From a bacterium (GTDB lineage Bacteria > Planctomycetota > Planctomycetia > Pirellulales > UBA1268), in NCBI GenBank assembly GCA_029978085.1, contig JAPOJV010000016.1:1-35924 (forward strand): DNA of 35,924 bases. Reading direction: 5' to 3'. The number at the start of each line of letters is the position of its first letter. Within the stretch, counting starts at the first letter, position 1. The notes beneath the pieces were generated by a model. It saw nothing but the letters and a program-made list of their open reading frames with translations. It ran no database searches and had not been told where the DNA came from. Shown here piece after piece: positions 29,961 through 35,762 of the stretch. Made by a program: the position numbers and the translations under genes.

Positions 29961-29969
29961 CCTCCCACC

Positions 29970-30833
29970 ATGCTCAAACTCGCCTTCAGTTCCAACGCCT
30001 ATCTCGACGTACCGGTGGAGGAGGCGATCGCCCGGATCGCCGGCTTCGGCTACCACGGCATCGAATTGCTCGCCGACGTGCCGCACGCCTGGCCCGCCGG
30101 ACTGCTCGGCGTGCAGAAGGATTCGATCCGCCGCGCCCTTGCCGCGAGCGGCCTGGCGATCTCCAACATCAATGCCTTCATGATGAACGCGGTCGCCGAT
30201 CCGCGGCAGCCCTACTGGCATCCCGGCTGGACCGATCCCGATCGGCATTACCGGGCGATCCGCCGGGAGCATACGAAGCGGGCCCTGCGGCTGGCCGCGG
30301 AGCTCGGGGCGCCGGCGATCTCGACCGAGCCCGGCGGCGAGATTCAGCCGGGGCAGAGCCGCGAGCAGGCCACCGACATCTTCTATGAGGAAATCATGCC
30401 GGTGCTCGACGTGGCGGCGGCGGTGGGCGTGACGCTTCTTATCGAGCCGGAGCCGGGGCTGCTCATCGAGAAGTTCGGCCAGTATCTCGAGTTTGCCGAG
30501 CGGGTGAATCACCCGGCGCTCGGCCTGAACTTCGACATCGGCCACGCCTACTGCGTGGGCGAGGATCCGGCCGAGTGGGTGCCGCGGATGAAGGATCACA
30601 CGCGGCACTACCACTTCGAAGACATCGCCGCCACGCGGGTGCACCATCACCTCGTGCAGGGCGAAGGGGCGATCGACTTCGGGAGCGTGTTCCAGGCGAT
30701 CGCTGCCCACACGCCCGATCGCTGGGTGACGGTGGAACTCTATCCCTACCGCGACCGGCCCGATGATGCGGCCCGCGCCGCGCGGGCCCACCTGCTGGCG
30801 TGCGCGAAGGCCGTCGGCGTGGAGCTGGCCTGA
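29970..30833 (+). CDS. Xylose-isomerase-like TIM-barrel protein (sugar phosphate isomerase/epimerase family), 1
   Basis: A 287-residue AP-endonuclease-2/xylose-isomerase-like barrel. It starts MLKLAFSSNAYLDVPVEEAI with the usual first strand. Probable metal ligands sit where the family has them: E159 (LLIEPEPG), D189 and H192 (FDIGHA), H215 (HYHFED) and E256 (VELYPY). STEPGGE (119-124 region) and HHHLVQGEGAIDF line the barrel mouth. It is followed one base later by a UbiA-type prenyltransferase gene, and a second barrel gene follows that. Such barrel proteins beside UbiA are a feature of Ebo-type clusters, but the substrate here is unknown. Confidence 0.85.
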   Translation: MLKLAFSSNAYLDVPVEEAIARIAGFGYHGIELLADVPHAWPAGLLGVQKDSIRRALAASGLAISNINAFMMNAVADPRQPYWHPGWTDPDRHYRAIRREHTKRALRLAAELGAPAISTEPGGEIQPGQSREQATDIFYEEIMPVLDVAAAVGVTLLIEPEPGLLIEKFGQYLEFAERVNHPALGLNFDIGHAYCVGEDPAEWVPRMKDHTRHYHFEDIAATRVHHHLVQGEGAIDFGSVFQAIAAHTPDRWVTVELYPYRDRPDDAARAARAHLLACAKAVGVELA

Positions 30834-30834
30834 C

Positions 30835-31752
30835 ATGCGTGACTGGCTGCGGATCGTACGGCTGCCGAATCATGCGACGGCCGTCGCCGACGTGCTGGCC
30901 GGCTATCTCATCGTCGCGGTACTGCGCGTCCTCGACTGGCCGCCAGCCGCCTGCTGGCTGGCGATCCTCGCGAGCGTCTGCTTCTATGCGGCGGGTATGG
31001 TGCTCAACGATGTCTGCGACGTGGAGCTCGACCGCGTCGAGCGGCCGGAGCGGCCGCTGCCGAGCGGCGCAATCAGCGTCCGCCAGGCGGCCCTCGTGGG
31101 CAGCAGCCTGCTCGCCGCTGGTTCGGCGGCCGCCTGTGCGACGGCGATCGTGGCCCGCTCCCCGTGGCCGGCGCTCGTCGGGGCTGGGCTGACCGCCGCG
31201 GTGTGGCTCTATGATCGGCACGCGAAGCCCACGCTCGCCGGGCCGTTCGTGATGGGAGCCTGCCGCGGCCTCAACTGGCTGTTGGGAATGACTGCTGCCG
31301 GTGGGGCCATCGGCTCGCTCTGGACGATCCCGCTCGGCATGGCCCTCTATGTCGCGGGCATTACGCTCTACGCCCGCGACGAGGCGGGCCGGAGCCGCGT
31401 GGCCACGCTCGTCGGCGGGCTGGCGGTGATGGGGCTCGGCCTTGCGGTCGCGTCGCGTTTCATCTGGCCGGCGGTGGAAGCGGGGGCGAATCTTCCCGAG
31501 TCGCCACTGCCGGCGTCGAACTGGCTCTTGCTCTGGGGCATCCTCGGCACGTCGATCCTGCTCCGTGGCCTCATCGGTGTGCTCGACCCGTCGCCGGGGC
31601 GGGTGCAGGCCGCCGTGGGCAATGCGATCATGTCGATCATCACGCTCGACGCCGTGCTCGTGCTCGCGTTCTGCGGTGAGCGATGGGCGGTCGTGCTCCT
31701 GCTGCTCCTCCCGCTCTTCATGTTCGGCAGGCGGCTCGTGCCGCCGACCTGA
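30835..31752 (+). CDS. UbiA-family prenyltransferase (EboC-like)
   Basis: An integral membrane prenyltransferase of 305 residues with about eight helices. The first Asp-rich motif is NDVCDVELDRVERPERPLPSG (N58, D59, D62, D66), which binds the Mg-prenyl-diphosphate. The second motif region reads LYDRHAKPT (125-133), followed by GACRGLNWLLGM. No ubiquinone, menaquinone or haem O gene is nearby, so a house-keeping role is not indicated. The RGLN-type second half and the flanking TIM-barrel proteins recall EboC of the Ebo cluster, from memory of that family. The ATG at 30835 follows the barrel stop after one base, so the two are coupled. Confidence 0.85.
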   Translation: MRDWLRIVRLPNHATAVADVLAGYLIVAVLRVLDWPPAACWLAILASVCFYAAGMVLNDVCDVELDRVERPERPLPSGAISVRQAALVGSSLLAAGSAAACATAIVARSPWPALVGAGLTAAVWLYDRHAKPTLAGPFVMGACRGLNWLLGMTAAGGAIGSLWTIPLGMALYVAGITLYARDEAGRSRVATLVGGLAVMGLGLAVASRFIWPAVEAGANLPESPLPASNWLLLWGILGTSILLRGLIGVLDPSPGRVQAAVGNAIMSIITLDAVLVLAFCGERWAVVLLLLLPLFMFGRRLVPPT

Positions 31753-31788
31753 GGCGGGCGATTCCGACGGAGCCTGACGGAGGCTTGT

Positions 31789-32634
31789 GTGGCCATGCGG
31801 CTCGGGTTCAGCACCAACAGCATCGGCGACATCGACCCGCTCGACGCGCTGCCGCTACTCGCCGAGCTGGGCTACACGTCGCTGGCCCTCACGCTCGATC
31901 GCCACACGATTGATCCGTTTGCCGCGGACCTGTCGACCCGGATCGAGCGCTGGCGGCGGGCGCTCGCCGCGAGCGAAATGGCGTGCGTCATCGAGACGGG
32001 AGCCCGCCATCTGCTCGACGTGCGAGTGAAGCACGAGCCCACGTTCGTGACTGCGGATCCGGAGGCCCGTGGCCGTCGCGTCGAGTTCACGCGGCGGGCG
32101 GTCGACATCGCCGCGGAACTCGGAGCAGGCTGCGCATCGGCCTGGTCGGGCGTGGTGCGGGATGCCGCCCCGAGCGACGTGGTCTGGGAGCGGCTCGTCG
32201 GGGCCGTCGCGCCGGTCGTCGACCATGCGGCGCGGCGCGGCGTGTCGCTCGGCTTCGAGCCCGAGCCCGGCATGTTCATCGACTCGCTCGCCCGCTTTGG
32301 GCTGCTCCGCGAGCGACTCGGCCGGCCAGAATCGCTCCGGCTCACCGTCGATCTCGGCCACCTTGAGTGCATGGGGGAGCGTCCGCTGGCGAAGCGGCTC
32401 GCGATGTGGAGCGGCGAGATCGTGAACGTGCACGTGGACGACATGCTCGCCTGCCGCCACGAGCACTTGCCGTTGGGGCAGGGGGACGTCGAGGTCGCCC
32501 CGCTCCTCGCCGCGCTCGCTGCCGCCGGCTACGCGGGGGGGCTCCACATCGAACTTCCCCGCCAGTCACACCGCTGGCTCGAAACCGCCCGCGAGTCGGC
32601 CCGCACGCTTCGCCGCGTAAAAAATCTCAAATGA
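31789..32634 (+). CDS. Xylose-isomerase-like TIM-barrel protein, 2
   Basis: A 281-residue second barrel, clearly different from the first. Strand one is MRLGFSTNSIGDIDPLDALP. Likely metal ligands are E157 (LGFEPEPG), D188 and H191 (VDLGHLECMGE), H215 (NVHVDDM) and E255 (LHIELP). ACRHEHLPLGQGDVEVAPLL matches the substrate-loop position of the family. The two GTG/ATG starts at 31789 and 31795 are both possible; GGAGG five bases before the GTG favours it. It ends before a hairpin with a short T-run at 32641-32671. It belongs to the same run of genes as the prenyltransferase. Function unknown; similar proteins occur in Ebo clusters (EboE is longer, about 400 residues). Confidence 0.82.
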   Translation: MAMRLGFSTNSIGDIDPLDALPLLAELGYTSLALTLDRHTIDPFAADLSTRIERWRRALAASEMACVIETGARHLLDVRVKHEPTFVTADPEARGRRVEFTRRAVDIAAELGAGCASAWSGVVRDAAPSDVVWERLVGAVAPVVDHAARRGVSLGFEPEPGMFIDSLARFGLLRERLGRPESLRLTVDLGHLECMGERPLAKRLAMWSGEIVNVHVDDMLACRHEHLPLGQGDVEVAPLLAALAAAGYAGGLHIELPRQSHRWLETARESARTLRRVKNLK

Positions 32635-32640
32635 TCTGCG

Positions 32641-32671
32641 AAAAGCCTCATGGACATGGGGCCTTTCGTTT
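32641..32671 (+). terminator. Possible terminator after the TIM-barrel/UbiA group
   Basis: AAAAGCCTCAT and ATGGGGCCTTT form an imperfect stem around a three-base loop, followed by CGTTTCG. It begins seven bases after the barrel stop codon. The stem is weak and the T-run short, so this is a modest call. Confidence 0.4.
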
Positions 32672-32683
32672 CGCATGGTGAGC

Positions 32684-32701
32684 AAGTGATTCCAATCACT
32701 T
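32684..32701. promoter_or_regulatory. Perfect 8-bp palindrome, candidate operator
   Basis: AAGTGATTCCAATCACTT has perfect eight-base arms around CC, in an AT-rich patch of an otherwise GC-rich window. It ends 22 bases before the Gfo/Idh/MocA start codon, where a repressor or activator site would act. Size and symmetry suit a dimeric regulator of the LacI or GntR type. A broken XylR/AraC regulator gene lies 1.4 kb downstream, but AraC-type sites are usually direct repeats. Confidence 0.45.
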
Positions 32702-32723
32702 TCCCAGCGAGACATCTCTCTCC

Positions 32724-33869
32724 ATGACCAGCACGGCAGCTGCCCGGCGGAAGGTTCGCACCGCCATCGTCGGCCTCGGCTTCGGGGCCGAATTCATCCC
32801 CATCCATCAGCGGCATCCGCACGCGGAGCTCGTCGCCATCTGCCAGCGGTCGAAAGACAAGCTCGACCAGGTGGGCAACGCCTACGGCGTCGAACGGCGG
32901 TATCAGTCGTACGCCGACGTGCTCAAGGACAAGGAAATCGACGCCGTCCACATCAATTCACCGATTCCCGACCACGGCCCGATGTCGATCGCGGCCCTCG
33001 AGGCGGGCAAGCACGTGATGTGCACGGTGCCGATGGCCACGAGCATCGAGGACTGCAAGAAGATCGTTGAGCTGTCGGAGAAGACCGGCCTCACATACAT
33101 GATGGCGGAAACGGTCGTCTATGCCCGCGAGTTCCTGTTCATCCGGCAGCTGGCCGCACGGGGCGATCTCGGCAAGATTCAGTTCGTGCAGGCGAGCCAC
33201 CAGCAGGATATGGACGGCTGGCCGAACTACTGGCCGGGGCTGCCGCCGATGCACTATGCCACCCACTGCGTGGGCCCGTGCCTGGCCCTGGAGCGGAAGG
33301 ATGCTGAGGAAGTGAGCTGTTTCGGCTCGGGCCGGATCCGCGAGGAGCTGGTCGCGAAATACGGTTCGCCGTTCGCGATCGAGAGCGCCCATGTGAAGCT
33401 GCGCATGAGCGACGTCGTGGCCCGCGTGATCCGCTCGCTGTTCGACACGGCCCGGCAGTATCGCGAGAGCTTCGACGTGTATGGCTCGAAGCAGAGCTTC
33501 GAGTGGCAGCTCATGGAGGGGGAGGAGCCGGTGCTCCATACGGCGAAGCTGCCGGAGCCCGAGATCCCCAAGCGGGTGCCGGTGCCCGACTTCGCGCACC
33601 TGCTCCCCGAGCCGATCCAGCGGTTCACCACCGGCGGCGTCTACGACGCAGGCGACCACCAGCACCTCTCGTTCACGCAGGGAGGCGGCCATGGCGGCAG
33701 CCATCCGCACCTCGTGCACGAGTTCGTCACGGCCCTCGTGGAGGGTCGCGATCCGTATCCGAATGCCCGTCAGAGCGCCAACTGGACCTGCACCGGCATC
33801 CTGGCCCACGAGTCGGCGATGAAGGGTGGCGCTATCATGAAATTGCCCGAGTGGAGTTTTTCCGGCTGA
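32724..33869 (+). CDS. Gfo/Idh/MocA family oxidoreductase
   Basis: NAD(P)-dependent sugar or inositol dehydrogenase-like protein of 381 residues. The Rossmann fold is present (AIVGLGFGAEFIPIHQRHPH, residues 14-33), followed by the substrate domain (residues ~130-340). The EKPxA motif that normally supplies the catalytic lysine reads CTVPMA (100-105), so the lysine is absent. A histidine-rich stretch (DHQHLSFTQGGGHGGSHPHL) near residues 311-330 may bind metal or substrate. No Tat signal is visible, so it is cytoplasmic. It follows the two TIM-barrel genes, a common pairing in sugar catabolism. GAGACATCTCTCTCC before the ATG is a weak ribosome site. Confidence 0.88.
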   Translation: MTSTAAARRKVRTAIVGLGFGAEFIPIHQRHPHAELVAICQRSKDKLDQVGNAYGVERRYQSYADVLKDKEIDAVHINSPIPDHGPMSIAALEAGKHVMCTVPMATSIEDCKKIVELSEKTGLTYMMAETVVYAREFLFIRQLAARGDLGKIQFVQASHQQDMDGWPNYWPGLPPMHYATHCVGPCLALERKDAEEVSCFGSGRIREELVAKYGSPFAIESAHVKLRMSDVVARVIRSLFDTARQYRESFDVYGSKQSFEWQLMEGEEPVLHTAKLPEPEIPKRVPVPDFAHLLPEPIQRFTTGGVYDAGDHQHLSFTQGGGHGGSHPHLVHEFVTALVEGRDPYPNARQSANWTCTGILAHESAMKGGAIMKLPEWSFSG

Positions 33870-33875
33870 TCGTCC

Positions 33876-34218
33876 GCTCGTCGTGGGCCATCACGACGAA
33901 CCGCACGAAGGAGCGGCCGATCGCGACAGCCACGTCGGGCCGCTTGGCGAGCAGTCTGTCGATGAGCCAGGCCGCCTCGGCCAGTGCCGCGGGCTGTACC
34001 CGTTCGCTCGCCACCACCGGAATGCCCCCAGCGGCCCGCACGTACTGCGTGTAGACCGGCGACGGCGAGGAATCCGGTGAGATGGGTGTCGATGCGCATT
34101 GAAGAATTCCCAGGCGATGAGTGTAGCCGTGCGGGGGCGGTCGTGATGGTAAAAAAGAACCTATGCCCCGCTCCCGCACCGCGTCGCTTCGCCGTTCGCC
34201 GCGGGTCGCCGTGCTCAT
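33876..34218 (-). pseudogene. Remnant of an unknown protein gene
   Basis: The minus frame reads TPISPDSSPSPVYTQYVRAA then GGIPVVASERVQPAALAEAA and WLIDRLLAKRPDVAVAIGRS, ending FVRFVVMAHDERT, before it runs into the antisense of the Gfo gene. The pattern of alternating helix and strand looks like real protein and resembles, from memory, a secreted planctomycete domain with GGIPVVAS and VRFVVMA. No signal peptide or convincing start exists; the upstream end crosses the start of the broken regulator gene, and the C-terminal half is missing. It is best read as a decayed fragment. The function of the parent protein is unknown. Confidence 0.45.
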
Positions 34219-35140
34219 CGAGGCGTCGAACGCCTACGGCCGCGGGTTGCTCGAAGGCATCCACCGTCACGTCCGCGAGCACGACCCCTGGACGATCCTG
34301 CTGCCCGAGCACGGCCGCGGCCTGCCGCCGCTGGCGATGCTCGCCCGCTGGCAAGGGGATGGCGTGATCGCCCGCATCGAGACGCCGGCGATCGCCGCCG
34401 CGGTCGGCACGCTCCGGCGCAGGCTCGGCATCCCCGTGATCGACGTCAGTGCCGCACGTCTCCTGCCCGACGTGCCCTAGGTCGAGGCGATCGAGGCCTG
34501 GCTCATGTCGCTGCCCAAGCCCGTGGGGCTCTTCGCCTGCTACGACATCCGCGGCCGGCAGGCGCTCGATGCCTGCCGGCGGGCCGGGCTTTCGGTCCCC
34601 GACAACGTGGCCGTGCTCGGCGTCGACGACGATGCCGTGCTCTGCGGGCTGTCGAGCCCCCCGCTCTCGAGCGTCATTCCCGACGCCCGCGGCGCAGGCC
34701 GCCTCGCCGCCGAGCTGCTCGAGGCGCTGCTGCGCGGTGAACCGCTGGAACGCGATGAGTGGCTTCTCCCCCCCGTGGGCATCGCGATGCGGCAGAGCAC
34801 GGATGTTTTGGCGATCGACGATGCGGTCGTCGTCGCTGCCGTCCGCTACATCCGCGAGCATGCCTGCGACGGGATCAAGGTGGCCGACGTTCTGAAGGCG
34901 GTGGGCAGCGGTCGCCGCGGGCTCGAAAGTCGGTTCACCCGCCGCGTGGGCCACACGCCGCACGAGGAGATCGCCCGCCTGCAGTTTCGCCGCGTCGAGC
35001 AGCTGCTCGCCGAGACCGACCTGCCGCTCGCCACGATCGCCGCCCGGGCCGGCTTCCGCCACACCGAATACATGACCGTGGCGTTCACCCGCCGCCACGG
35101 CGTGTCGCCGAGCCGCTGGCGGCGCAGCCGGCGTGGCTGA
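34163..35140 (+). pseudogene. XylR/AraC-type transcriptional regulator, broken by internal deletion and in-frame stop
   Basis: The first reading part (34163-34480, 105 codons) is the start of a LacI-like sugar-sensing domain: VAVLIEASNAYGRGLLEGIH to IPVIDVSAARLLPDVP. A TAG at 34478-34480 ends it. The same frame continues at once with VEAIEAWLMSLPKPVGLFAC to the end of that domain and then a C-terminal AraC-type helix-turn-helix region (VADVLKAVGSGRRGLESRFT, LATIAARAGFRHTEYMTVAF). Intact XylR-family proteins of this kind have about 385-390 residues; here the two parts sum to about 325, so about 65 residues are missing exactly at the TAG. The second part could be read alone from ATG 34505, giving 211 residues with an intact DNA-binding domain. 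The missing segment would link the two halves of the sensor domain, so sugar sensing should be lost. Confidence 0.85.
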
Positions 35141-35597: not shown

Positions 35598-35762
35598 AGA
35601 TGTTTCCTTGCAATGAATAAAAGCAGGTGATCCGTCGAACTCCAAAACGGGTAGGCGAGGGGGTCGGTGCAAGCTCGAGGAGCATTTGGACCGAGTCTTC
35701 GAGGTCCCGCGACGAGACTTGTACCGCCCCCGAGCCGGTGATCTCCGTAATGAAGACGCCGT

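Follow-up and report, generated by a model that had tools for sequence, protein, structure and literature searches.

The window, by which we mean the whole analysed stretch of 35,924 nucleotides of planctomycete DNA, carries at 34163-35140 what we class as a pseudogene of the XylR family rather than a working member of it. Comparison with related genomes makes it very probable that a local XylR-type regulator has recently become a pseudogene here, in a neighbourhood that was itself hit by deletion. What had been suspected to be an odd regulator thus appears from the alignments as ordinary recent gene decay and not as a new device, with nothing unusual except its apparent recency. For annotation, the interval is one pseudogene rather than two proteins. 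A literature search revealed no report on this XylR locus.

The interrupted gene and its two lesions

The following features, all on the + strand, were assigned to the gene and are used below.

34163-35140, +: interrupted gene of a XylR-type regulator (PBP1-like sensor plus AraC-type HTH), from frame reading, Pfam and sister alignment
34163-34477, +: N piece of the pseudogene, 105 codons, first part of the sensor (PF22177; 92% nucleotide identity to C136:8236-8559 of the sister genome G010)
34478-34480, +: nonsense codon TAG, formerly TAC (tyrosine in all close spanning orthologs)
34481-35137, +: C piece of the pseudogene, 219 codons, remaining sensor and AraC-type HTH (PF13377, PF12833, PF00165; 76-79% amino acid identity to orthologs)
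34483-34486, +: deletion junction CGAG (tetramer at both segment ends in G010 C136, 8556-8559 and 8757-8760; once in the window)
34505-35137, +: possible restart ORF of 211 amino acids from ATG 34505 (GTC in G010; GAGG 8 nt upstream)
35138-35140, +: stop codon TGA of the C piece, from frame reading

The reading frame is open from the ATG at 34163 to 34477 and, beyond the TAG, the same frame remains open to the TGA, as the first-pass annotation had described. This two-piece XylR-type frame is real and far beyond chance. In Pfam searches, the N piece meets PBP1_XylR (PF22177) with an E-value of 2.9e-7 and 31.1 bits at a cut-off of 27. The C piece matches Peripla_BP_3 (PF13377, 3e-26), with the match starting only at profile position 70, and contains the AraC-type HTH (HTH_18, PF12833, 5e-18; HTH_AraC, PF00165, 3e-10). 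The identity as a XylR/AraC regulator, proposed earlier from the letters alone, is borne out by the PBP1_XylR, Peripla_BP_3 and HTH_18 matches. A complete PBP-like sensor domain in one frame is absent, owing to the TAG and the loss of 67 codons. Since the normal start would yield at most a part of the sensor without the HTH, the gene is presumably dead as a sugar-dependent regulator. An Rfam search for RNA elements in the window gave no match.

Compared with the sister from the same genus (G010, C136:8236-8820), 201 bp corresponding to 67 codons are missing between the pieces. The missing middle had thus been recognized correctly before, while its size had been put at about 65 codons. Both pieces align with C136 without gaps at 92% nucleotide identity, the C piece over its first 64 bp only, because this contig stops inside the gene. 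The deletion alone keeps the frame and makes no stop. In the breakpoint region G010 reads CCCTACGTCGAG-ACC and the window CCCTAGGTCGAG-GCG, and these codons show that the TAG is a point change distinct from the deletion, namely a C>G change (TAC>TAG) two codons upstream of the breakpoint. There are therefore two lesions, and not a "TAG at the join" as the first-pass annotation had it; its exclusion of a single-base sequencing error as the cause holds, as 201 bp are missing. The 201 bp were lost between two copies of CGAG, and slippage or microhomology end-joining was probably the cause; the nonsense codon was gained separately. Mapped through the phmmer alignment, the 67 deleted codons fall on about residues 101-172 of E. 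coli XylR, which lie inside the sugar-sensing domain.

Among the spanning orthologs, both lesions are unique to the window. In all close spanning orthologs, from about 12 species, the segment is kept and no stop is present; the comparison included G010, G020, G008, G029 and the GTDB loci L111-L121 and L123, in which the same genes are counted under two names (G020 = L118, G008 = L119, G029 = L117). The short two-part form, which had been considered as something that relatives might share, was found in none of them. Reassignment of TAG to an amino acid was rejected, as TAG terminates several credible genes of the window. G010 also contains a second XylR-type gene (L007, C192:5691-6329) with 58% amino acid identity to the window C piece and with one in-frame TAG, near the contig edge.

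Gene neighbourhood in the window and in relatives

Upstream of the pseudogene, the window contains:

32724-33869, +: intact Gfo/Idh/MocA oxidoreductase gene, which adjoins the dehydrogenase gene in relatives (PF01408; dN/dS 0.084 vs. G010)
33870-34068, -: 199-bp remnant of a gene of about 301 amino acids (92% nucleotide identity to the intact G010 gene next to XylR)
34069-34162, no strand: 94 bp before XylR, dissimilar to the 281 bp at the same place in G010

In L111-L115, L117, L119-L121 and L123, a ThuA-DUF7133 dehydrogenase gene (1459 amino acids) is located directly before XylR. The order Gfo oxidoreductase - ThuA-DUF7133 - XylR is found in L112, L113, L114, L117 and L121, while in L111, L115, L119, L120 and L123 the contig ends inside the large gene preceding XylR. 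Also, the dehydrogenase gene adjoins Gfo in G010 (on C148) and G008. Thereby, a conserved Gfo - ThuA/DUF7133 dehydrogenase - XylR cassette is documented in these planctomycetes, which provides a testable guess at the normal targets of the regulator: family and conserved neighbourhood suggest that intact XylR controls this cassette in response to sugar.

The dehydrogenase gene is missing in the window, and elsewhere in the window's genome (G000) only paralogs of about 30-37% were found, an absence that is not absolute given the fragmentation of this assembly (263 contigs) and its completeness of about 98%. The likeness to the Gfo region of C148 extends to 33862 and the Gfo frame to 33869; the remnant begins at 33870, so that the Gfo stop abuts the minus-strand remnant. 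Its intact parent protein has no match in Pfam or NCBIfam. On C136 of G010, a minus-strand gene and genes resembling those for hydroxyproline breakdown lie ahead of XylR; when these hydroxyproline-type genes were sought in G000, the aldehyde dehydrogenase alone had a relative there, at 73%. No end overlap was found between the G010 contigs C148 and C136. For the 94 bp at 34069-34162, no convincing match was obtained in 22 genomes of the genus. A TACAAC tract, or a close variant of it, is found a few bases ahead of the XylR ATG in most orthologs, but not in the window.

These alignments show that a deletion in the window lineage removed the DNA between Gfo and the remnant of the minus-strand gene. 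The dehydrogenase gene was lost in this way together with most of another neighbour, and the comparison also shows that the region just before XylR was replaced. In the proposed course of events, the regulator may have lost its job once its neighbour was gone, and would then have decayed. Partner loss does not force regulator loss, as in G020 (L118, C113) XylR is intact although the ThuA-DUF7133 gene is missing between it and Gfo. The larger context, i.e. the loss of the dehydrogenase gene, of most of another neighbour and of the usual 5' region, had been overlooked in the first-pass annotation.

Two further observations concern the surroundings. In the window (29961-33869) and in G010, Gfo follows TIM-barrel, UbiA-like and TIM-barrel genes; in G020 a ferredoxin gene lies directly after these three genes, and Gfo-XylR are on another contig. 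The Gfo cassette has thus apparently changed place in the lineage of the window and G010. At 35654-35738, the window contains a dispersed repeat of about 85 bp, self-folding (DNA z-score -2.9) and with sharp edges and unrelated flanks. In G000, where 40 of 105 candidates were scored, it has at least 41 matches at 91-100%; there are dozens in G010, and copies that have diverged further occur in G029 and G008. It has no Rfam match and is perhaps a REP- or MITE-like element.

Age of the inactivation and alternative readings

In the tree, the window XylR groups with G010 and then with G020. Between the N piece and G010, 20 synonymous and 5 nonsynonymous changes were counted (dN/dS 0.08), a proportion like that of the intact neighbours (Fisher p = 0.49), for which dN/dS is 0.08 (Gfo), 0.10 (UbiA-like) and 0.16 (second TIM-barrel gene). 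For the 199-bp remnant, 7 synonymous and 8 nonsynonymous changes give a dN/dS of 0.42, a difference from the N piece that is weak and based on small numbers (p = 0.04). The C piece has changes at 2 of 114 otherwise invariant columns, within the 0-8 of the intact orthologs, among which the XylR of G020 has the most (8 of 120). A XylR that was unconstrained throughout the terminal branch should have gathered about 30 nonsynonymous changes on it; the 5 seen, on both branches together, limit the unconstrained time to at most about one third of the window's terminal branch. No relaxation of constraint after the lesion is visible in either piece. This signature of purifying selection on both pieces points to a recent inactivation, and the lesion is probably too young for relaxation to show. 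By the same token, the substitutions alone do not show the gene to be dead.

It is improbable that translation restarts at ATG 34505 to give a 211-residue product of part-sensor and whole HTH, which acts without sugar or blocks regulator sites. The frame stays open downstream of 34505; the ATG itself, 24 nt past the TAG and with GAGG 8 nt ahead of it, is found in the window only (GTC>ATG vs. G010), and the HTH residues are retained in the C piece. However, the GAGG was already part of the ancestral coding sequence, and both the usual promoter region and a gene presumed to be a target have disappeared. In addition, the N piece, which could do nothing by itself, shows no less constraint than the C piece, and recency alone accounts for this. 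The low dN/dS of the N piece suggests constraint from before the lesion, so the same signal in the C piece does not speak for retention of a fragment. Of the earlier claim, the DNA-binding part open from ATG 34505 stands, but the constitutive or dominant fragment gains nothing from a C-piece constraint that is no stronger than that of the N piece. That a sensor-less constitutive AraC-type fragment from this ATG is kept and sets the remaining genes (e.g. Gfo) without a sugar signal seems very improbable.

We also see only a slight chance that the source population is intact and that the contig was joined wrongly during assembly or from a strain mixture. The 263 contigs of G000, the break of G010's own contig within the XylR gene and the undiminished constraint on both pieces would fit such an artefact. 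In de Bruijn assembly, however, an overlap of 4 bp is too short to join on, so the junction k-mers must come from reads and the CGAG overlap is insufficient for a misjoin; moreover, two further and distinct lesions, the nonsense change and the neighbour deletion, lie next to the junction. Readthrough of the TAG into a shortened regulator of about 325 residues, for which the deletion preserves the frame, can almost be dismissed, because several credible window genes terminate in TAG and the product, having lost 67 codons within the sugar-sensing domain, would probably fail as a sensor.

Comparison with known systems

E. coli XylR (PDB 4FE4, 4FE7), the regulator of the xylose operon, has a two-part architecture like that of the intact ortholog L118, which it matches over residues 16-390 (phmmer, 1e-46). 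In contrast, the window copy is interrupted and without the part matching about residues 101-172, and the neighbours in the planctomycete group are not xylose operon genes. Closer counterparts are the intact orthologs from planctomycete MAGs (G010 C136, G020/L118, G008/L119, G029/L117, L111-L115, L120, L121 and L123), to which the C part of the window gene has 72-79% amino acid identity, and the N part 94% to G010. Unlike the window copy, they keep the segment and are stop-free, and in almost every one the dehydrogenase gene immediately precedes XylR. In bacteria, pseudogenes of local regulators arise after the loss of neighbouring genes, and like these, the window XylR combines a deletion, a nonsense codon and neighbour loss.
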